64,000 bases of DNA, taken from assembly GCF_029664245.1 (NCBI RefSeq), contig NZ_JANAIE010000007.1, positions 94,409 through 158,408 of the forward strand. The letters run 5' to 3'. Source of the DNA: Profundicola chukchiensis. GTDB taxonomy: Bacteria > Bacteroidota > Bacteroidia > Flavobacteriales > Weeksellaceae. A program made the translations under genes and the position numbers. Positions within the stretch are counted from its first letter, which is position 1. The number at the start of each line of letters is the position of its first letter. Under the pieces are notes generated by a model, which made no database searches, had not been told where the DNA came from, and saw only the letters and a program-made list of their open reading frames with translations. Of this stretch, positions 4,591 through 62,725 are shown piece after piece.

Positions 4591-5319
4591 TTAGAGTCTT
4601 TGTCTAATTACCTCATATAGAAATGCACCACAAGCCACAGATACGTTCAGCGATCCGATTTCACCATACATAGGTAACTTAGCTAAATTATCAGAAATCC
4701 TGATTAACTCATTTGAAACTCCGTCATCTTCACTACCCATTACAATGGCTGTCGGTAAACTAAAGTCCATGTCGTAAATGGTGTCGCTTGTTTTCTCAGA
4801 TGCACAAGTGATAGAAATTCCCGAAAGTTGTAAAAATTTAATCGTTTCCTTCAATGATTTTACTTTACACACAGGAATTTGATAAAGTGCTCCCGCCGAA
4901 GTTTTTATAGCGTCTTCGTTAACAGAAGCAGAACCTTTCTCTGGAATAATGATAACATCTACACCCGTACACTCTGCGGTTCTAGCGATAGCTCCAAAAT
5001 TACGAACATCGCTTACGCGGTCTAAAATTAAAATTAAAGGATTTTTACCTGCTTCGTAAATGCTTGGTAATACATTTTCAATTTTATAAAAATCAATTGG
5101 CGAAATAAAAGCAAATACACCTTGGTGATTTTTACCTGTTAATCGATTAAGTTTTTGTATTGGAACCTGTTGCATCGGAATTCCGTATTCCGTGGCTTTA
5201 TCTAATAATTCATGGTATAGGTCGCCTTGCAATCCTTTCTGAATCATTAATTTATCTATGGTTTTTCCAGCTTCTATAGCTTCTAAAACAGGTCTAAGAC
5301 CGAAAATTCTATCCTTCAT
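4591..5319 (-). CDS. rlmB: 23S rRNA (guanosine-2'-O-)-methyltransferase RlmB
   Basis: 242 residues with the SpoU/TrmH (SPOUT) layout. An N-terminal L30e-like substrate-binding domain (FGLRPVLEAIEAGKTIDKL) is followed by the knotted methyltransferase domain with DRVSDVRNFGAIARTAE (motif 1), VMGSEDDGVS (motif 2) and IGSLNVSVACG (motif 3). RlmB methylates G2251 of E. coli 23S rRNA. Paralogues of this family modify other sites, so the exact target is inferred. Confidence 0.9.
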   Translation of the reverse strand: MKDRIFGLRPVLEAIEAGKTIDKLMIQKGLQGDLYHELLDKATEYGIPMQQVPIQKLNRLTGKNHQGVFAFISPIDFYKIENVLPSIYEAGKNPLILILDRVSDVRNFGAIARTAECTGVDVIIIPEKGSASVNEDAIKTSAGALYQIPVCKVKSLKETIKFLQLSGISITCASEKTSDTIYDMDFSLPTAIVMGSEDDGVSNELIRISDNLAKLPMYGEIGSLNVSVACGAFLYEVIRQRL

Positions 5320-5328
5320 GCGGTAAAA

Positions 5329-6165
5329 TTACAATATTTGTACGGATTGATAGGAATCAAAAATTTTAATACACTCTTTAGCCTCCTTAACATCGTGAAC
5401 ACGCAAAATTTTAGCGCCATGTTGCAAAGCCAACATATTGACAGCGGTAGTTCCATTGAGCGCATCTTTTGGGTTTACGCCTAAGGTCTTGCAAATCATT
5501 GATTTTCTAGAGACTCCTGCCAAGATAGGGTAGTCATTAAAGCCTAATAATTCTTGATTTCTTAGTAATTCAAAGTTATGTTCTAAAGATTTTCCAAATC
5601 CATATCCAGGATCTAAAATGATATCATTTATATGCAGCTCTTTTAATGTTTTAATTTTCTCAGCAAAAAATAAATTAATCTCTGTTATGATGTTATCATA
5701 GTGCGGCTCGGCTTGCATATCTTTTGGCATTCCTTGCATGTGCATCAGGATATAGGGAACCTTTAGTTCAGCGACTGTTTTAAACAACTCATCATCAATT
5801 CTTCCAGCTGAAATATCATTGATGATAGCAGCTCCCATTTCCACACCATGTTGAGCAACTTTGCTGTAAAATGTATCCAATGAAACAATGAGCTCTGGAA
5901 AATTTTTAAGAATTAAATCTAAAAAAGGTTCAACCCTCTGTAATTCTTCGTCAGCGGAAATAACTTCTGATCCTGGTTTCGTGGTTTGTCCGCCAATATC
6001 CAAGATATCCAAACCATCCTCAAGCATTTGCTCAACCGTTTTCAGAATATTGTCTTGGTTTTGGTGTTTACCACCATCAAAGAAAGAGTCGGGGGTAAGA
6101 TTAAGAATACCCATCACTTTTGGAGAGCTTAAATCGAGTAATTTACCTTTACAGTTGATAGTCAT
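5329..6165 (-). CDS. folP: Dihydropteroate synthase
   Basis: 278 residues. Signatures are GILNLTPDSFFDGG near residue 20, DIGGQTTKPGS (the pterin/pABA loop, usually DIGGxSTRPG), NDISAG, ILDPGYGFGK and GVSRKSM. It condenses 6-hydroxymethyl-dihydropterin pyrophosphate with p-aminobenzoate in folate synthesis and is the sulfonamide target. It lies 9 bp upstream of rlmB and is transcribed divergently from the DUF1599 gene. Confidence 0.97.
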   Translation of the reverse strand: MTINCKGKLLDLSSPKVMGILNLTPDSFFDGGKHQNQDNILKTVEQMLEDGLDILDIGGQTTKPGSEVISADEELQRVEPFLDLILKNFPELIVSLDTFYSKVAQHGVEMGAAIINDISAGRIDDELFKTVAELKVPYILMHMQGMPKDMQAEPHYDNIITEINLFFAEKIKTLKELHINDIILDPGYGFGKSLEHNFELLRNQELLGFNDYPILAGVSRKSMICKTLGVNPKDALNGTTAVNMLALQHGAKILRVHDVKEAKECIKIFDSYQSVQIL

Positions 6166-49785: not shown

Positions 49786-49894
49786 TGAAACTAAAAACTA
49801 CAGTTAACAGCTTTTTAAATTAATGACTTGTAATTTTCTGCTTACAAATCTAGATAGATATTGAGTTGCAGGTTTTGATCTAAACAGTTGACCT

Positions 49895-49965
49895 CGCTCA
49901 TGTCTATTTGAGTTTATTTACTAAATTAGTTACTTAAACCCGCAACTAAGCATACACATAAACTT
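49895..49965 (+). other. Degenerate attC-like right half
   Basis: ACCCGCAACTAAGCATACAC then ATAAAC matches the right arm of attC6 (ACCCGCAACTATTCTTATAC then ATAAACGTTG) in order and spacing. The terminal R' box has decayed to TTTAACTT. The left half is not clear. It suggests that the gene at 49976 was once a cassette. Confidence 0.5.
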
Positions 49966-49975
49966 TAACTTATAT

Positions 49976-53040: not shown

Positions 53041-53185
53041 TACACAACAGAATTTATAAATGTTGCGTTATGTCTTTGCGATTTTCAAAAAAACAAATAG
53101 TAAAATTTAAAAATTTGGCTCGAGCTTAATCCGAAAGTTAATTTCTTATTTACAACTCTAATTCTTTTATTCTAAACCCTTGTGC
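53041..53185 (+). other. Degenerate attC-like site upstream of the recombinase
   Basis: The left end TACACAAC resembles an R'' box. The right end TAAACCCTTGTGCG resembles spacer plus R' (G changed to C). The middle contains AAAAATTTGGCTCG and nearby sequence also found inside attC2 (about 56708), which supports common origin. It is clearly decayed. Confidence 0.5.
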
Positions 53186-53471: not shown

Positions 53472-53825
53472 TTACTTGTTACGCACAATTAAAATTTCAT
53501 CATCGGAAAATTCCATCCAAGCCAAATCATACACATAATGAAACATTTTGTTTTTTGAATTTATGTGGAAATGTGTGTGATACTTAAATCGAAACTTCTT
53601 CTTTTCCAACGTGTTTCTATACACTTTTATCTGCGTTTTATTTTTACCTAATAACTCCCAAAGTATAGCATAATTCCGTTTCAGAAAACCATTAATTTCA
53701 ATTGCTGCAGTTTTGGTTGCAAAACGTACATTTTTATGATAATGGTTTTTACAGTCTACAGAGCAGAAGATCTTATCTACTCTTCCTCGGAGCGTTTTTT
53801 CGCAAATTTTACATTTTCGTTCCAT
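53472..53825 (-). CDS. Zinc-ribbon protein divergent from the recombinase
   Basis: 117 residues. An N-terminal zinc ribbon CKICEKTLRGRVDKIFCSVDC has four cysteines (CxxC and CxxxC). A basic helical middle follows (NYAILWELLGKNKTQIKVYR), then FRFKYHTHFHINSKNK and the end AWMEFSDDEILIVRNK. It could bind DNA. It is the only minus-strand gene in the cassette region and is divergent from the recombinase across a 138-bp gap with phased repeats. That makes it a candidate accessory factor or regulator, by inference. Confidence 0.75.
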   Translation of the reverse strand: MERKCKICEKTLRGRVDKIFCSVDCKNHYHKNVRFATKTAAIEINGFLKRNYAILWELLGKNKTQIKVYRNTLEKKKFRFKYHTHFHINSKNKMFHYVYDLAWMEFSDDEILIVRNK

Positions 53826-53868
53826 TACACATCAGGTTTTTAAACAAATATACATTATTCGTTCTTAA

Positions 53869-53905
53869 CGGTTATATACGCTTATTCCCGTTTATTATCG
53901 CTTAA
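53869..53905. promoter_or_regulatory. Four 10-bp phased CGNTTAW repeats between the divergent genes
   Basis: CGGTTAT, CGCTTAT, CGTTTAT and CGCTTAA start at 53869, 53879, 53889 and 53899, exactly one helical turn apart. This fits cooperative binding on one face of DNA, by a regulator or by the recombinase N-terminal domain. It lies about 45 bp from the zinc-ribbon start and about 60 bp from the recombinase start. Confidence 0.6.
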
Positions 53906-53963
53906 CAATCCAATTTTGTGTGTATTTCAAGTTAATTTAGAGCAAGGAATATTTCAAAATATT

Positions 53964-55097
53964 ATGGAAACACGAGACAAAAATCAACCTATTATGTATC
54001 TACCACTTCCTAATGCTGGTCGGGTAAAGTTTTATATTCCATATCCGTTAAAGGATAAACGCGAGGCTTTTAAGAAGTTGAATACTTCATACTATCATCC
54101 GCATCAAAAACTGTGGAGTATTGTAAACACTGAGTCTAATATTGCATTGGCTAAAGAATTGTTTGGAGACCAATTGCGAATTGAGCAATTAAAGCCAACT
54201 CCAAAAATGCCAAAGGTTGTTCTTACAGAAAAAATACAAATTGAATTAGACCGAAATCACCAGAAGATGGTTTTAAAAGGTTTCAGCCAGTCTACCATTC
54301 GGAACTATCAACACGGATTAAGTGAGTTTTTAAGTTATTTTGAAAGTGAAGACTATAGATCAATTAGTAAGGAACAAATTGAGGGCTTTATTTTTTATTT
54401 AATTAGCAAATACAGTATCAGTGAGCAGAAACAGAACCTACTAATAAACGCGATTAAGTGTTATTATGAACACACCTTGGAAATGCCTAGGGAATATTAC
54501 ACCATAACGCGGCCAAAGAAAAGCAAGAATCTTCCTAATGTGTTAAGTGAAGCCGAAGTACGTCTAATATTAAACCAACCTAAAAACATAAAACACAAGG
54601 CTATACTTCATATTATATACGCTGCTGGTCTTCGAGTTGGTGAAGTTATCCGTCTACGAGTAACGGACATTCGAAGCGACGATGGTTATATTTTTATAAA
54701 AGATAGCAAGGGCAAAAAAGACCGACATACAGTGCTTAGTCCCTATCTGTTAGAGCTTTTACGAGAATATTATAAAAAGTATCGACCCAGTTATTGGTTA
54801 TTTGAAGGGCAAGATGGTGGGCAATATTCTGCTAAGAGTATTCAAAATATTTACAGAAAGGCCGTTAAGGAAACCAATAGCAACCCTTGGAGCACCCCAC
54901 ATACGCTGCGACATAGCTTCGCAACGCACTTAATGCAGCAGGGTGTAAACATTCGATATATACAGAGCGCATTAGGACATGCTAGCAGCAAAACAACCGA
55001 AGTTTATACTAGAGTATTAGGTATTAGCAACAAAACCTTAAAAAGTCCATTGGATAGTTTATTTGAAAATACTATATTTGATGAATCGAAGAAATAG
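53964..55097 (+). CDS. Tyrosine recombinase, integron-integrase-like
   Basis: The ATG at 53964 (METRDKNQPIMYLPL) is chosen over a TTG at 53916, giving 377 residues. Residues 1-80 are an N-terminal extension (DKREAFKKL, YHPHQKLWSI). Residues 92-182 are the SAM-like core-binding domain. The catalytic domain shows Arg224 (AAGLRVGEV), Lys251/252 (KGKKDRH), His313 and Arg316 (PHTLRHSF), His339 (LGHASS) and the nucleophile Tyr348 (TTEVYTRVL). The end TLKSPLDSL recalls the RSPLD tail of IntI1. The stretch between LLELL and PHTLRH is only about 48 residues, so the extra IntI domain appears absent. It immediately precedes the cassettes, in the same direction. Confidence 0.92.
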   Translation: METRDKNQPIMYLPLPNAGRVKFYIPYPLKDKREAFKKLNTSYYHPHQKLWSIVNTESNIALAKELFGDQLRIEQLKPTPKMPKVVLTEKIQIELDRNHQKMVLKGFSQSTIRNYQHGLSEFLSYFESEDYRSISKEQIEGFIFYLISKYSISEQKQNLLINAIKCYYEHTLEMPREYYTITRPKKSKNLPNVLSEAEVRLILNQPKNIKHKAILHIIYAAGLRVGEVIRLRVTDIRSDDGYIFIKDSKGKKDRHTVLSPYLLELLREYYKKYRPSYWLFEGQDGGQYSAKSIQNIYRKAVKETNSNPWSTPHTLRHSFATHLMQQGVNIRYIQSALGHASSKTTEVYTRVLGISNKTLKSPLDSLFENTIFDESKK

Positions 55098-55165
55098 TGG
55101 TTTTGTCGTACAAGGTGAATATAACAGCCATAATTCCATTAAAACTTCGTTTATAACTATGTTGT
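55098..55165 (+). other. Putative attI-like region and first cassette junction
   Basis: Between the recombinase stop and cassette 1 lie 63 bp that end ATAACTATGTTGTAAAAC. GTTGTAAAAC (55161-55170) is the first cassette start box, so the crossover would be after the G at 55161. No second half of a palindrome is seen to its left, as expected for attI rather than attC. Confidence 0.5.
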
Positions 55166-55173
55166 AAAACATT

Positions 55174-55569
55174 TTGAAAAAAACACTATACTTATTGATT
55201 TTAATAAGTTTCGGATTTAAATGCGCTGATAATAATTGCGAATTAAAAGACGGAAAATATAAAGTCATTTATGACGAACAGTTTTCGGAATATCCAAAAT
55301 TTGAGTTTGAAATAAATGGACAAAACTTAACGGAAATAAACTCTGTTAAAAATCGGAATTACATTATTGAAAATCTTGGTGAAAACTCATTCCGACTTAA
55401 ATCGCTGGAAAGACAAACTGACTCGTTAACTGAATTTCAAAAGACATTAATGTCGCACGGAAAACCATATTATGAAATAACGAATTGTACAAATGACACT
55501 ATCGAATTTACAATGCGAGTGAATTTGCACGTGATTTCACATTCTGGAAAATTTGTAAGAACCGAATGA
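55174..55569 (+). CDS. Cassette 1: small lipoprotein
   Basis: 131 residues from a TTG start 13 bp inside the cassette (MKKTLYLLILISFGFKCADN). A signal peptide has its Cys at about 17, so it is probably a lipoprotein. The mature part has more cysteines (NCELKD, NCTND). I do not recognise the family. The gene fills the cassette almost completely, with 10 bp from its stop to the R'' box. Confidence 0.75.
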   Translation: MKKTLYLLILISFGFKCADNNCELKDGKYKVIYDEQFSEYPKFEFEINGQNLTEINSVKNRNYIIENLGENSFRLKSLERQTDSLTEFQKTLMSHGKPYYEITNCTNDTIEFTMRVNLHVISHSGKFVRTE

Positions 55570-55578
55570 ATAAAAAAC

Positions 55579-55714
55579 GTTTTACAACAATGTATAACCG
55601 CAATTACGGCGGATTCGACTACGTCCGAATCCACTCGGAATTGCTAACATCTGTACTAAACCGAAAATTAACGCATATTAACCCGTAACTGACGCTTATA
55701 CTTGACCGTTGTGC
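55579..55714 (+). other. attC-like site 1
   Basis: R'' GTTTTACAAC (55579-55588), spacer AAT, L'' GTATAA; then a variable stem with GCAATT/AATTGC and GGATTCG/CGAATCC; then L' TTATAC, spacer TTGACC, R' GTTGTGC (55708-55714). R'' is the exact complement of the cassette 1 start box at 55161. Confidence 0.85.
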
Positions 55715-55796
55715 GTAATTTGAACAACTCATCGCTAAATAACAACAATTCGGAAAATCAAATTTGATATTTTAATGTTTTAACCTGAATTTTGAA

Positions 55797-56579
55797 ATGT
55801 CAAAACCGATAAAAAAAAAGATGAATATCAAAAATAAAGCGTTAGCTATAAACTCTACATTGATTGTCGTTTCAACAACCATTATTGGAACTATTTTGCA
55901 CGAACTCGCTCATTTTTTAATGGCTAAATATTTTGAACTGAATCCCGAATTACATCACAATTATGTTAATTATCTTACTGAAAATGCTACTGAATTTCAA
56001 AAAGCAATAATTGCTGGAATTGGGCCAGTTTTCAGCCTAATATTTGGAATTATTATTCTTTTAATATCTGTTAAGATTTTAAAACCATCCCTTCTTAAAC
56101 TTTTTATGCTTTGGTTAGGAATGAATGGAATTCTTATGTTTTTAGGCTACATTTTAATCGCACCAATAGTAAAAAATGGAGATACAGGTCAAGTTTTCGA
56201 TTTTTTAAACATTCCAACTTTTATTTCAGTTGTTATTGCTGTCATATCATTTGTTATAATTATCAAGTTGTTTTCAAGCCTTTCAAAAGAATTCCGATTT
56301 TATAAAAATGAAGATTTATTCGTGCAGAAAGAAAATGAGAAACAACTCTTCTTTTATCCAATTTGGTTTTCAATAATATTTATAACGATATTGAGTTTAC
56401 CAGTTGTTACTTGGATTAGCTTATTGCCGACTATTTTTATGCCAATGACCTATTTCAGCACAATGAAAAAATATAGAAAACAGAATTTAGAAAATGCTGA
56501 ATTGGAAATAAATTTTATATCAAAACCACTTTTAATATTGACAATTGGCACAATAATAATATTTAGAATACTAATATAA
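55797..56579 (+). CDS. Cassette 2: multi-helix membrane protein with HExxH motif
   Basis: 260 residues, about six membrane helices. The first helix region holds HELAHF (His35, Glu36, His39), a zinc-protease signature, with IAGIGPVFSLIFG after it and NGDTGQVFDFLNIP further on, reminiscent of intramembrane M50-type peptidases. The classic M50 NPDG motif is not clear. It might be an intramembrane protease or a relative without activity. Confidence 0.75.
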   Translation: MSKPIKKKMNIKNKALAINSTLIVVSTTIIGTILHELAHFLMAKYFELNPELHHNYVNYLTENATEFQKAIIAGIGPVFSLIFGIIILLISVKILKPSLLKLFMLWLGMNGILMFLGYILIAPIVKNGDTGQVFDFLNIPTFISVVIAVISFVIIIKLFSSLSKEFRFYKNEDLFVQKENEKQLFFYPIWFSIIFITILSLPVVTWISLLPTIFMPMTYFSTMKKYRKQNLENAELEINFISKPLLILTIGTIIIFRILI

Positions 56580-56583
56580 AAAC

Positions 56584-56782
56584 TACGCACAACAACGTAT
56601 ATAGCTCATAGCTAGGCAGTTGTTTAATCGGAAGTTTAGGCATATTTGCGAAGTCCGCCAAATTTTTTAATTTGGCTTATTTAAAAGAAAAGGTAATAAG
56701 AAAATTAAAAAATTTGGCTCGTGCTCAACCGAATAGTTATCGCTAATTTACACGCTACGAGCCATATACAAAACCGTTGCCT
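56584..56782 (+). other. attC-like site 2 (long form)
   Basis: R'' TACGCACAAC (56584-56593), spacer AAC, L'' GTATATAGCTC; L' GAGCCATATAC, spacer AAAACC, R' GTTGCCT (56776-56782). The 11-nt L boxes pair with one mismatch. At 199 bp it is longer than the others and contains CCAAATT/AATTTGG stems. R'' complements the cassette 2 start box GTTGTGCGTA at 55708. Confidence 0.85.
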
Positions 56783-56799
56783 ACAATTTAAAAAACATA

Positions 56800-57225
56800 A
56801 TGTCAAGCTTAAATAGAAATAAAGAAATTAAAATTGGAATTTCAAAATTTTCAATTGGTTTTGATTTTATTATAGTCATAGTAATTCTCGGAATAGCATT
56901 CTATTCATACTTTGGAAATTACAATATAAAAGTTTCAATTTTTCTGATTATAATAGGTTCTCTAAACTTGATATACTACCTACGGAAATTTTTTGACACT
57001 GAAACTAAAATAATGATTAATTCAAGGGGAATAAACCTTGAAGGCAAATTTATTAGTTGGGATGAAGTGGAAGAAGTAAATGTGGAAAGATTAAGTTCTG
57101 ATTTAATCCACTCTGAATATTTGAATATTGTAACTAAAAATAATGATTTTTTTGATTTTGAAATTACAGACTTAAAAATTACTGCAAACAAACTATTGAA
57201 AACCATTGAATTTTATCGAAAATAA
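56800..57225 (+). CDS. Cassette 3: two-helix membrane protein with PH-like tail
   Basis: 141 residues. Two helices (FIIVIVILGIAFYSYFG and VSIFLIIIGSLNLIYYL) are followed by a PH-like soluble tail: IMINSRGINLEGKFISWDEV, then a VEEVNVERL strand and a final helix ANKLLKTIEFYRK. Comparable layouts occur in cassettes 5 and 7. Function unknown. Confidence 0.75.
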   Translation: MSSLNRNKEIKIGISKFSIGFDFIIVIVILGIAFYSYFGNYNIKVSIFLIIIGSLNLIYYLRKFFDTETKIMINSRGINLEGKFISWDEVEEVNVERLSSDLIHSEYLNIVTKNNDFFDFEITDLKITANKLLKTIEFYRK

Positions 57226-57231
57226 AAAAAC

Positions 57232-57369
57232 TGTAGGCAACAAGGCGTATATTTTATTGCTGGCTGAATTTTCGTACCGAAAATTCGTGCCAATCAATAA
57301 AGTTTTCGAACAAGTTCGAAAGTTTTCGCTAACTTAATCCGCAACAAAACATACACCAAGACGTTACCT
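57232..57369 (+). other. attC-like site 3
   Basis: R'' TGTAGGCAAC (57232-57241), spacer AAGGC, L'' GTAT; inner hairpin GAATTTTCG/CGAAAATTC; L' ATAC, R' GTTACCT (57363-57369). R'' complements the cassette 3 start box GTTGCCTACA at 56776. Length 138 bp. Confidence 0.85.
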
Positions 57370-57401
57370 GCAATTGCGGAACTCACTCAAACCTTAATTA
57401 A

Positions 57402-57575
57402 ATGAAAATAAAAAAAAGAACATTTGACTTAATTTTTATTATTGTTTCAACTGCAATATTAATAGCATTATCAGAATATGGACTTTTAGAAAAGTATATG
57501 GCTTTTGCTTTAATTCCAATTTTAATTGCATATCAATTAGGACAATATTCTGAAAGAAAATTTAAGAACGAATAG
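57402..57575 (+). CDS. Cassette 4: 57-residue membrane protein
   Basis: MKIKKRTFDLIFIIVSTAIL begins a protein with two membrane helices (FIIVSTAILIALSEYG and MAFALIPILIAYQLG) and a charged end SERKFKNE. It starts 39 bp after the cassette start box. The rest of the cassette (57576-57813) shows no gene in this direction, which is unusual in this compact array. Confidence 0.65.
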   Translation: MKIKKRTFDLIFIIVSTAILIALSEYGLLEKYMAFALIPILIAYQLGQYSERKFKNE

Positions 57576-57813
57576 CTGAATTCTGAATGAAATTCACGTC
57601 GGATTTTTTAGCTCGTATACGGAATCGCAATCTGAATTGAAAACCAAAATCGAACTGTGAGTAGAAATTAGCAAGTTGCGGAATTAACACTCAAACGGAA
57701 TTGAGCAAGTTTGTGGAATTGAAAAACTAAACTGTAAAAATAAGCGGAGTTTTTCGCTGGTTTGGTTTTTGCATTTTTTTTGAATTTTAAGAAAGTAAAA
57801 ACGAAAAACAACA

Positions 57814-57949
57814 GCAGGTAACACCGTGTAAAAAACATTGCTTATTTTAGTTCAATCGTTTGGTCGTTGCTCTTTTGCTAGCTTCTGATTTTCCTGCGGA
57901 AAATCCTCGCATACAAAATCGCAACGTTCCTTACACAAAACCGTTGTAA
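57814..57949 (+). other. attC-like site 4
   Basis: R'' GCAGGTAAC (57814-57822), spacer ACC, L'' GTGTAA; L' TTACAC, spacer AAAACC, R' GTTGTAA (57943-57949). The middle has TTCCTGCGGAAAATCC. R'' complements the cassette 4 start box GTTACCTGC at 57363. Length 136 bp. Confidence 0.85.
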
Positions 57950-57978
57950 AACATTTGAAAAAAAAAAACGAATGAAAT

Positions 57979-58461
57979 ATGAAAAACTATAAAAGTAAAA
58001 GCTCATTTAGTGTTAAACTAATTACAATTGGAACTGTGGTTGTGATGGGAATTGTTGTTTTATCAATCTTAACTCTAAACGAAAAATACGGAATAATAGG
58101 CGGAATAATTATTTCCTTAATAATTTTAAGTACTCTGATTTATTTTTACGCAAACTCACTTAAAAAAATATTAATAGAAGAAAAACATCTAACTCTTGAA
58201 AAAAATATAGGAAAAATAGAAATACCTTTTTCTGATATTATCAAAATTGAAAAACTGGACTTTTCAAATTTATCAATGACTTACGGAAGTAAAGGTGTCT
58301 TTGGATATATTGGAAATACGATGGACGACTCAATAAGTATGGTAAATGACAGAAAAAATATGGTTCGAATTATAACCAATGATAAGAAATATACGATTAG
58401 CTCTGAAAGACCACAAGATTTGATAAAGGATATAAAAAACGTTTTACAACACCGTGTATAA
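57979..58461 (+). CDS. Cassette 5: two-helix membrane protein with PH-like domain
   Basis: 160 residues. Two helices (ITIGTVVVMGIVVLSILTL and IIGGIIISLIILSTLIYFYA) precede a PH-like domain (LIEEKHLTLEKNIGKIEIPF, then FGYIGNTMDDSISM and YTISSERPQDLIKDIKNVL). The final residues LQHRV and the stop are encoded inside attC5, so the recombination site supplies the end of the protein. Confidence 0.78.
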   Translation: MKNYKSKSSFSVKLITIGTVVVMGIVVLSILTLNEKYGIIGGIIISLIILSTLIYFYANSLKKILIEEKHLTLEKNIGKIEIPFSDIIKIEKLDFSNLSMTYGSKGVFGYIGNTMDDSISMVNDRKNMVRIITNDKKYTISSERPQDLIKDIKNVLQHRV

Positions 58462-58575
58462 GTTATGGCTGGGTTTATGCCTACTTGGAAAATCCTGCGG
58501 ATTTTCCACTGGCAAGTACCTGCTTGCAATTGTCTGTGACAAACCACGCCACTGCTCATACACGAAACGTTAGGC
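58441..58575 (+). other. attC-like site 5
   Basis: R'' GTTTTACAAC (58441-58450), spacer ACC, L'' GTGTAT; an inner stem ACTTG-GAAAATCC-tgc-GGATTTTC and CAAGT; L' ATACAC, spacer GAAAC, R' GTTAGGC (58569-58575). R'' complements the cassette 5 start box GTTGTAAAAC at 57943. Length 135 bp. Confidence 0.88.
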
Positions 58576-58595
58576 AATATTTAAAACGAACATTT

Positions 58596-59126
58596 ATGAA
58601 ACCAATTACAAAATTGTATTTAAAGACCTTTTTGCTAACAGGAATACCTTACGGATTGATAATGCTAGGTTTTGATTTGGCTGATGGCGATGGATTTAGA
58701 TTATGGAAATACTTATTTATGACTTTCTTTTTTGGAATCACTATGTCATTAATATTAGTGTCATTTCATAGATACAGACTGAAGAAAAACGGGATTCAGG
58801 AAATCACTAATAATAATGTTGGAGTAAATCAATCGAGAAATCTGAAAACAGGATTGAATAAAACTGACCTTGTAAATAAATTAAAAACTGATCCGATAAT
58901 TGGAAAAATGAAAATGACGGAAATTGAAAATGGAATTTTGCTAAAATCAGGTATGACTTGGAAATCTTGGGGCGAGGAAATAAAAATAATATTGAAAAGC
59001 GAAAATGAAACAGATTTTGAATATCAGATTTCAAGCAGTCCAAAATTGAAAACAACGTTAGTCGACTATGGGAAAAATCTTGAAAACATAAACCGAATAG
59101 AAAGTGCAATAAAAAACATTGCCTAA
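58596..59126 (+). CDS. Cassette 6: two-helix membrane protein of unknown function
   Basis: The ATG at 58596 (MKPITKLYLKTFLLTG) is chosen. The frame is open back to 58485, but that part lies in attC5. 176 residues: two helices (FLLTGIPYGLIMLGFDLA and LFMTFFFGITMSLILVSF), then a soluble domain with MTEIENGILLKSGMTWKSWG and EIKIILKSE. The stop codon TAA lies inside the R'' box of attC6. Confidence 0.75.
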   Translation: MKPITKLYLKTFLLTGIPYGLIMLGFDLADGDGFRLWKYLFMTFFFGITMSLILVSFHRYRLKKNGIQEITNNNVGVNQSRNLKTGLNKTDLVNKLKTDPIIGKMKMTEIENGILLKSGMTWKSWGEEIKIILKSENETDFEYQISSSPKLKTTLVDYGKNLENINRIESAIKNIA

Positions 59127-59252
59127 CACCGTATAAAAATAATTGCGGTTTAGTGCTTAATCAAAGGTCGTTGCAAGTTTGTAACGTCTGTATTTCCTTC
59201 TGAAATTCCTCGCATACAAACCCGCAACTATTCTTATACATAAACGTTGTGC
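59118..59252 (+). other. attC-like site 6
   Basis: R'' ATTGCCTAAC (59118-59127), spacer ACC, L'' GTATAA; L' TTATAC, spacer ATAAAC, R' GTTGTGC (59246-59252). R'' complements the cassette 6 start box GTTAGGCAAT at 58569. Length 135 bp. Confidence 0.87.
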
Positions 59253-59275
59253 AACATTTATCAAAAACATCGAAA

Positions 59276-59677
59276 ATGAAAATAAAATATAATGAAATAG
59301 ATAAATCAATCGAAATTAAAGATGAATTGAGAAGTCATTATTTATTATTAAAAATTGTAATGATTTTAAATTTGATAAGTGCAGTTTTTCAATTACTTGA
59401 CATAAATGAAACTGGAATCGGATTCATAGAAATTATATTATTTATAGTCGGAATTATCTCATTAATAATTTTGTGCATTTTTATATTTAAAAAATCTACT
59501 TCCGATAAAATACCGATTGAAAAAATTGAGCGATTAACTAAAAAATCTATATTCGGAAAGAAACAATTCTCTCTGAAATTAAAAAACGGAAAGAAACGTG
59601 ACTTAACAGAATTAAAATCTGAAACGGAATTTGCTGAATTGAAAAAACTATTTTCTGAAATCGGAATTACAAACTGA
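59276..59677 (+). CDS. Cassette 7: two-helix membrane protein with PH-like tail
   Basis: The ATG at 59276 (MKIKYNEIDKSIEIKDEL) is chosen. A GTG at 59249 inside the junction is possible. 133 residues. A short N-terminal strand part is followed by two helices (LLLKIVMILNLISAVFQLL and IEIILFIVGIISLIILCIFIF) and a PH-like tail (IERLTKKSIFGKKQFSLKLK, ELKKLFSEIGI). Function unknown. Confidence 0.75.
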   Translation: MKIKYNEIDKSIEIKDELRSHYLLLKIVMILNLISAVFQLLDINETGIGFIEIILFIVGIISLIILCIFIFKKSTSDKIPIEKIERLTKKSIFGKKQFSLKLKNGKKRDLTELKSETEFAELKKLFSEIGITN

Positions 59678-59687
59678 AAGAAAAAAC

Positions 59688-59758
59688 GTTGCACAACACC
59701 GTGTATAATTAATGGCTGGTTCTCGCCTACTTACGAATCCCGATAGCTATCGGGATAG
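59688..59758 (+). other. attC-like site 7, left half only
   Basis: R'' GTTGCACAAC (59688-59697) complements the cassette 7 start box GTTGTGCAAC at 59246. Spacer ACC and L'' GTGTATAA follow, then the perfect 20-bp palindrome ATCCCGATAGCTATCGGGAT (59737-59756). No right half (L', R') is found. The site was probably cut by a deletion. From 59759 to 60071 I see no gene. Confidence 0.75.
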
Positions 59759-62435: not shown

Positions 62436-62639
62436 TTAGATTGATCATGCATATGCTTAATAAGCAACTCAAAGTGGTTTAATATATTTAATAGGCGAGA
62501 GGTGGTTTCGATAGAAATTAGCTATTGAAAATCATTAGACAAAGTATATAAGTTCGCTTGTTAGTGAAATTTTTAATGAGAGAACTACTGCTAGCAATGC
62601 ATATAAAAATATGTGAAATAGAAATAAAATCATTTCTTT

Positions 62640-62725
62640 TGTCCAGTCTCAAATTTTGATCTCAACGGAAAGTTTAGTGCTTTTAAATCGCCTACTTTTC
62701 AAATATTAGACGTTGTTGGCAGTAA
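62640..62725 (+). other. attC-like right arm before the PH gene
   Basis: AAATCGCCTACTTTTC, then ATATTAGACGTTGTTGGCAG. The ACGTTG end resembles the spacer-plus-R' ends of attC3 and attC6. No complementary R'' is found after the following gene, so the assignment is weak. Confidence 0.35.

Follow-up and report, generated by a model that had tools for sequence, protein, structure and literature searches.

What kind of system is formed by a tyrosine recombinase gene and the row of small genes that follows it in a flavobacterial chromosome? The question arises from a stretch of 64,000 nucleotides of Profundicola chukchiensis (contig NZ_JANAIE010000007.1, positions 94,409 to 158,408; the whole stretch is called the window, and positions are given in its numbering). 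There, a 64-bp attI-like stretch separates the recombinase gene from seven cassettes, all on the + strand. A first interpretation made from the letters alone, hereafter the sequence-only reading, had proposed a separate integron-like lineage in flavobacteria, and the conserved folded end sites found beside a recombinase that is not an IntI support this proposal. We put a probability of about 0.85 on recombinase, attI-like site and cassettes being one system, in which an enzyme outside IntI is predicted to insert and release cassettes at G|TT through a folded bottom strand, in the fashion of an integron.

Cassette starts pair with their own ends

The cassettes have defined boundaries: the bases following G|TT at a cassette start are the complement of the bases preceding AAC at its own end. 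The 13 cassettes of the host genome examined first showed 11-13 start-end matches over 14 positions, and the seven cassettes of the window paired at 12-13 of 14. A larger set was taken from 86 adjacent site pairs; removal of four longer than 3.5 kb and of seven with no GTT or AAC left 75 cassettes, 10 from the host genome and 65 from other loci. Over the 11 variable positions, a start matched its own end at 8.73 positions and the ends of other cassettes at 3.86, and the observed mean was reached in 0 of 10,000 permutations. Within one site in its array form, R'' and R' matched at a mere 4.18 of 11 positions (n = 120). The eleventh position was never paired (75/75), the opposed bases being A.C in 62 cassettes, A.G in 7, A.A in 5 and C.C in 1.

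The end sites are conserved folded structures with covarying pairs. Stems were analysed in 121 sites having both AAC and GTT, 114 of them with five or all six of the L pairs, representing 84 distinct arms. The L stem consisted, in order, of six pairs, an A.C mismatch, four covarying pairs, a second A.C mismatch and four further pairs, the mismatches being found at stem position 7 in 85 and at position 12 in 100 of the 114 sites. The four covarying positions were paired in 75-92% of cases, compared with 38-50% after shuffling. Symmetric pairing of the L arms without an extrahelical base was optimal in 93 of 114 sites, a skipped base was better in 12 and nine were ties. The attC topology recognised by the sequence-only reading therefore holds for the order of the boxes and for the AAC/GTT ends; extrahelical bases are replaced by conserved A.C mismatches. 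Each A.C mismatch in the top strand gives a G.T wobble in the bottom strand. Sites rebuilt in circular form, from cassettes matched at 8 of 11 positions or more, had a higher predicted stability of the bottom strand in 60 of 60 cases (mean 4.75 kcal/mol). The same was predicted for 111 of 121 sites in array form (2 ties), compared with 46 of 120 random segments. Terminators or REP-like (repetitive extragenic palindromic) elements at gene ends, with no role in recombination, would also fold stably and come after genes. Such elements leave the pairing of starts and ends, the strand asymmetry and the homology breaks at G|TT described below unexplained, and we find this explanation hardly credible.

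Homology between related loci stops at G|TT

The attI-like stretch lies beside the recombinase gene and occurs in four copies in the host genome, with a different cassette behind each. Besides the array in the window, the host genome has three others, each of which comes after a decayed copy of the recombinase C-terminus and the attI-like stretch and differs in content. The first-cassette junction was always ...G|TT and was located 37-161 nt past the recombinase end mark in 35 of 38 loci; the outlying junctions were at 680 nt (L068), 3764 nt (L105) and 4053 nt (L119), the homology break of L068 itself being at +151. Cassettes of the loci surveyed for the first junction had a median distance of 40 nt between their start and the forward open reading frame (ORF).

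We compared 21 pairs of loci with similar recombinases, three of which were uninformative (two contig ends and one alignment that stopped early). For 16 of the 18 informative pairs, the end of homology was 0-2 nt beyond GTT; for the other two it was at 10-14 nt, where the cassette starts are alike. Pairs from within one genome were included (L067/L068, 100%; L081/L085, 99.4%), and different arrays stand behind near-identical copies of recombinase and attI. Differences at GTT boxes, proposed as a check by the sequence-only reading, were found in relatives of this species: related loci part at G|TT and phage isolates differ at AAC/GTT. A single array of Galbibacter orientalis holds four copies of one cassette with 89-95% identity. 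A homologue of cassette 3 (84%) was found alone beside a helicase gene in a genome of another genus (G088), with homology stopping at the cassette ends; an end site was searched for at this homologue and not found.

This solitary copy, together with the near-perfect inverted repeats at the start and end of each cassette, would be expected if the cassettes were small transposons bounded by 14-bp terminal inverted repeats, mobilised by an unseen transposase and adjacent to the recombinase by chance. However, the arrays run head to tail on one strand right behind one recombinase family, the ends vary among cassettes, unlike those of a single transposase, and the breakpoints in Polaribacter phage Freya (see below) share no more than 3-4 nt. 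We therefore consider a transposon origin very unlikely.

End sites are linked to the recombinase

Sites were searched with a covariance model, R1, built from 10 sites and containing 14 pairs. Scanning the host genome (2.62 Mb in 108 contigs; 150 of 2383 R1 candidates scored) gave at least 25 matches at E<=1 and at least 21 at E<=1e-3. Many were outside the training set, including matches independent of it on contig C12, at C87:1481-4369, at C54:293615 and elsewhere. Across 80 loci with related recombinases, all 117 matches at E<=0.01 were on the recombinase strand; 114 were downstream of the gene (304 kb searched), and the other 3 were inside it or in the 668 kb upstream. The association of the palindromes with a recombinase, as first proposed, is borne out by these counts. 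At least one match was present in 44 of the 80 loci.

An order-wide sample of 296 genomes contained the recombinase (E<=1e-50) in 72 genomes and sites (E<=1e-6) in 79. Sites were found in 50 of the 72 genomes with the recombinase compared with 29 of the remaining 224, a count that takes both 296-genome samples as identical, as their handles suggest. The family sample had sites (E<=1e-5) in 95 of 316 genomes. With this distribution across order and family, such sites would represent a large and testable route of gene capture. Close relatives of the recombinase (E<=1e-90) were present in just 2 of 296 genomes sampled in the family, and the closest relative found was that of Aequorivita viscosa (91%). 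Because the enzyme is rare within the family and has its nearest relative in A. viscosa, its distribution suggests a spread by horizontal transfer. Relatives of the recombinase with about 52% identity along 60% of its length also turned up on plasmids of Acinetobacter (hits H6-H20; 50 of 65 records).

The recombinase lies outside the IntI branch

The window recombinase matched Pfam Phage_integrase (7.5e-40) and SAM_4. It scored 198.9 bits with NF040815, below the threshold of this curated Xer (XerA-like) family (220), and 191 bits with TIGR02249 (cut-off 265), in a match split in two stretches. In all 45 array-type recombinases measured (those of 42 loci, the window, L010 and L011), 64 residues lie between the KG-R motif and HxLRH, compared with 105-106 residues in 30 of 30 IntI proteins. 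Five remoter recombinases had 65-67 residues, and the spacing was not measurable in 23 others. The alignment of the IntI4 structure 2A3V to the window recombinase passes over chain residues 183-246; the additional domain specific to IntI sits near patch III (PMC9668308 and PMC8138268, cited here, like the other papers, from excerpts). In the tree, the 30 IntI proteins formed one separate branch supported by a Shimodaira-Hasegawa-like approximate likelihood ratio test (SH-aLRT) value of 99 and the array recombinases fell outside it, with the reservation that the method was quick and that long branches were flagged. Two recombinases of the same genus, first labelled as the Xer group, fell within the array recombinases.

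A canonical IntI integron that arrived in Flavobacteriia, its enzyme being a divergent IntI, would also display AAC/GTT ends and an attI adjoining the enzyme gene. The closest solved structures include IntI4 (2A3V), along with archaeal XerA (4A8E by sequence, 5HXY by fold), and in an integron-like subgroup conservation of the insert is incomplete (PMC8138268). Against this stand the motif spacing and the separate IntI branch, and R1 found no site at E<=0.01 in the 110 kb surrounding 30 genes for canonical IntI. We regard a divergent IntI as very improbable. As judged from its sequence, with the insert absent and a position outside the IntI clade, the window enzyme is not an IntI, yet the system is predicted to work like an integron.

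The structure model of the recombinase had a mean predicted local distance difference test score (pLDDT) of 73.9 and a predicted template modelling score (pTM) of 0.45. The N-terminal domain of about 75 amino acids (aa; encoded by 53964-54190) contained 13 invariant residues across 18 sequences. Searches for its relatives by sequence and by fold returned nothing firm, with weak hints of HARP-, XPB- and MutS-type structure-reading proteins. In other classes of the phylum (L141-L170), a canonical IntI above the family cut-off was seen in 84 of 296 sampled genomes; among the genomes with IntI matches, G355 was the sole member of the class to which the window belongs.

Phage arrays are inverted relative to the recombinase

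Relatives of the recombinase on viral contigs (31-49%; IMG/VR, L245-L312) were taken as a control, and 60 of 68 were scanned, near-duplicates being omitted. These loci contain arrays too: in 40 of them R1 detected 147 sites at E<=0.001, every one opposite the recombinase strand, with 143 upstream and 4 downstream of the gene. Own-end pairing reached at least 8 of 11 in 47 of 97 adjacent pairs having GTT and AAC, which is weaker than in Bacteroidota. Among the 56 viral cassettes matched at 7 or more of 11 positions, the longest ORF was opposite the site strand in 51, on the site strand in 3 and absent in 2, compared with 3 opposite, 56 on the site strand and 1 without an ORF in Bacteroidota loci. 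The bottom strand was predicted to be the more stable one in 53 of these 56. Phage cassettes were tiny, with a median longest ORF of about 85 aa (e.g. L253:4000-9900), and L253 had phage-family matches for 7 of 10 proteins, including an RNA ligase and a homing endonuclease. The best viral relatives were 44% identical over residues 94-367 and 49% identical over a fragment; none matched the N-terminal domain. A few Flavobacteriales (L137, G717:C164 and G499:C13) also had the recombinase and a nearby listed site on opposite strands, as in phages.

Isolates of Polaribacter phage Freya from one host strain (L313-L321) encode a relative of the recombinase, and five of ten isolates were compared. Freya_1 has no array and its stretches contained no R1 site. 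Freya_10 is longer by 4,939 bp, the point of entry being AAC, which reads GTT on the strand of the sites, with 3 nt of overlap. R1 sites are present in both Freya_8 and Freya_10, which differ by 902 bp at CAAC. Breaks were likewise at AAC in Freya_1/Freya_2, Freya_6/Freya_1 and Freya_6/Freya_10, the break being visible on one side only in the first two pairs. The isolates of this phage, whose recombinase is related to that of the window, thus differ by insertions or deletions, and every visible breakpoint is at AAC/GTT.

Organisation of the array in the window

The array comprises six complete end sites (Table 1). The box order R''-spacer-L''-variable-L'-spacer-R' and the L boxes of the GTGTAT/ATACAC type described by the sequence-only reading are present in the sequence. 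Its seven palindrome-closed modules correspond to seven cassettes, the seventh palindrome excepted, as site 7 has no R' box; of the modules described as one-gene, cassette 4 has as its sole ORF one of 57 aa. The start first given to the feature, 53472, takes in a - strand ORF (53472-53825) that no observation ties to the array. A 52-nt repeat (77%) connects 53089-53140 with 56688-56739, placing a piece of end site 2 upstream of the recombinase; this copy is perhaps the remnant of an older cassette. Weak R1 matches were also seen outside the array at 49848-49969 (27.4 bits) and 62590-62717 (20.0 bits).

Table 1 Features of the recombinase locus and of related copies elsewhere
Feature	Position	Strand	Details
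Tyrosine recombinase gene	53964..55097	+	377 aa; conserved N-terminal domain
attI-like site	55098..55161	+	64 bp, ends ...CTATG|TT; four genomic copies; homology limit between related loci
Cassette 1	55162..55708	+	ORF 55174-55569, 131 aa; start vs own R'' 13/14 paired
End site 1	55575..55721	+	92.9 bits with R1; in training set
Cassette 2	55709..56776	+	ORF 55797-56579, 260 aa, weak Peptidase_M50 match below cut-off; start/end 13/14
End site 2, long form	56580..56789	+	72.3 bits with R1; outside training set
Cassette 3	56777..57363	+	ORF 56800-57225, 141 aa; start/end 13/14; 84% homologue in a different genus
End site 3	57228..57376	+	95.3 bits with R1; in training set
Cassette 4	57364..57943	+	only a short ORF, 57402-57575; start/end 12/14
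End site 4	57809..57956	+	99.2 bits with R1; in training set
Cassette 5	57944..58569	+	ORF 57979-58461, bacterial PH domain (bPH_5 2.8e-09); start/end 13/14
End site 5	58437..58582	+	119.5 bits with R1; in training set
Cassette 6	58570..59246	+	ORF 58596-59126, 176 aa; start/end 13/14
End site 6	59114..59259	+	105.9 bits with R1; in training set
Cassette 7, 3' end truncated	59247..59758 (end as in the sequence-only reading)	+	ORF 59276-59677, 133 aa; start vs own R'' 13/14
End site 7, truncated	59684..59758	+	from sequence; R'' and L'' present, L'-R' gone, a different palindrome instead; just 21.6 bits with R1
Cassette 3 homologue	L134 about 5220-5680 (G088:C11:150218-150671)	-	homology limits at cassette ends
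Decayed C-terminal recombinase copies	L004:1501-1638, L005:96-203, L006:1501-1611		attI-like stretch and a different array after each

Cargo and proposed mechanism

The cargo survey covered 75 cassette ORFs, after two very long ones had been set aside. Among the matches listed (25 of 65 families) were Adenyl_transf (3), Beta-lactamase (3), LinB-like_C (2), APH (1) and MerT (1), names that stand for predicted functions. Cassette cargo of Bacteroidota (alignment A4) matches families whose names refer to nucleotidyltransferases for aminoglycosides and lincosamides and to beta-lactamases, and one cassette ORF is a UvrD-type helicase resembling GajB. As the cargo includes adenylyltransferase, beta-lactamase and lincosamide nucleotidyltransferase families, surveys of gene spread based on IntI may overlook the system.

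We propose that the window recombinase would catalyse the exchange of cassettes, with the folded bottom strand of the end site as its substrate, and that the bottom-strand G.T wobbles may help to set the choice of strand. Cassettes in which R'' and R' are near-perfect only in the circle would insert more readily than array copies excise. Arrays with end sites of this type are present in many Bacteroidota genomes and in flavobacterial phages, in which they would be an overlooked route of gene swapping. They would also show that folded sites can recombine without the IntI insert, which has been held essential for their use.

Several observations weigh against the proposal of a cassette-exchange system served by this recombinase family. 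Own-end pairing fell below 8 of 11 in 12 of the 75 cassettes. No R1 match was found in 36 of the 80 recombinase loci; 33 of these end within 2.4 kb past the gene, and L107, L120 and L121 have no match although they extend 10 kb beyond it. In the order-wide sample, the recombinase was missing at E<=1e-50 from 29 of the 79 genomes with sites, 22 of the 72 genomes with the recombinase had no sites, and the Fisher p of 2e-19 for co-occurrence ignores kinship between genomes. Identity between the recombinases of Freya and of the window is 31.7%, and a relative in phage Ingeline had no R1 match in the surrounding 13 kb.

A wider hypothesis, which we offer tentatively and consider somewhat less probable than its contrary, is that of a second integron kingdom, in which Bacteroidota and their phages would capture cassettes with a recombinase lineage of their own. 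Strand choice would follow from the A.C mismatches that become G.T wobbles in the bottom strand, and the private end code of each cassette, fully paired only in the circle, would act as a ratchet towards capture rather than loss. The N-terminal domain, given its weak fold likeness to XPB, HARP and MutS, might read the hairpin in place of the IntI insert, and phages might use a mirror-image version for swapping genes.

Comparison with known systems

Like IntI integrons, the window system has unidirectional one-gene cassettes, a tyrosine recombinase with an attI next to it, sites of the form R''-L''-L'-R' that have AAC/GTT ends, and G|TT as the insertion point. Use of the bottom strand, shown for IntI integrons, is predicted here from the stability of the folds. 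The window system differs in an enzyme that lacks the IntI additional domain, lies off the IntI branch and has an N-terminal domain of about 75 aa. It also differs in its sites, in which A.C positions (G.T in the bottom strand) replace extrahelical bases in most L arms and R pairing extends over about 14 bp around a single unpaired position. In canonical cassettes, an R self-pairing extended to 9-11 nt is already known, and the extrahelical bases of attC are on the R''-L'' arm (PMC2727003). The excerpt of the IntegronFinder 2.0 paper reports few integrons in Bacteroidetes, the one complete integron named being in Salinibacter ruber (PMC9024848). Our search of the literature on integrons and attC in Bacteroidetes and Flavobacteria (titles and starts of abstracts, with few subscription papers and no preprints) returned no description of these arrays; phage integrons were not searched for.

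The Polaribacter phages Freya resemble the window system in that a relative of the recombinase adjoins an array of small genes carrying end sites of this kind. Unlike the window system, they have been published as carriers of an integrase with a potentially temperate lifestyle and genomes of 44.0-48.9 kb, in a paper whose excerpted text contains no occurrence of the terms integron, cassette or attC (PMC8776804). Archaeal XerA is the best solved-structure relative of the window enzyme by sequence and by fold but, unlike the window system, has no cassette array. The substrates of XerA are double-stranded dif-like sites.

Riemerella belongs to the family Weeksellaceae and is thus a relative of the host. 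A conserved enzyme encoded on another contig of the host genome has 98% identity to that of 'Weeksellaceae bacterium KMM 9713', a partial sequence from a metagenome-assembled genome labelled Brumimicrobium being equally close, which places the host probably in or near this family. In Riemerella anatipestifer, aph(3')-IVb with flanks of 27 bp (5') and 140 bp (3') integrates independently of homology. Its 3' part folds like attC, and site-specific recombination was proposed, with lnu(H) and blaRATA cited as parallels; the section on aph(3')-IVb uptake names no recombinase, attI or array (PMC13148043). As described there, the element resembles the window cassettes in its attC-like 3' end, and a system like that of the window would supply the recombinase, making it a likely mechanism for this uptake.

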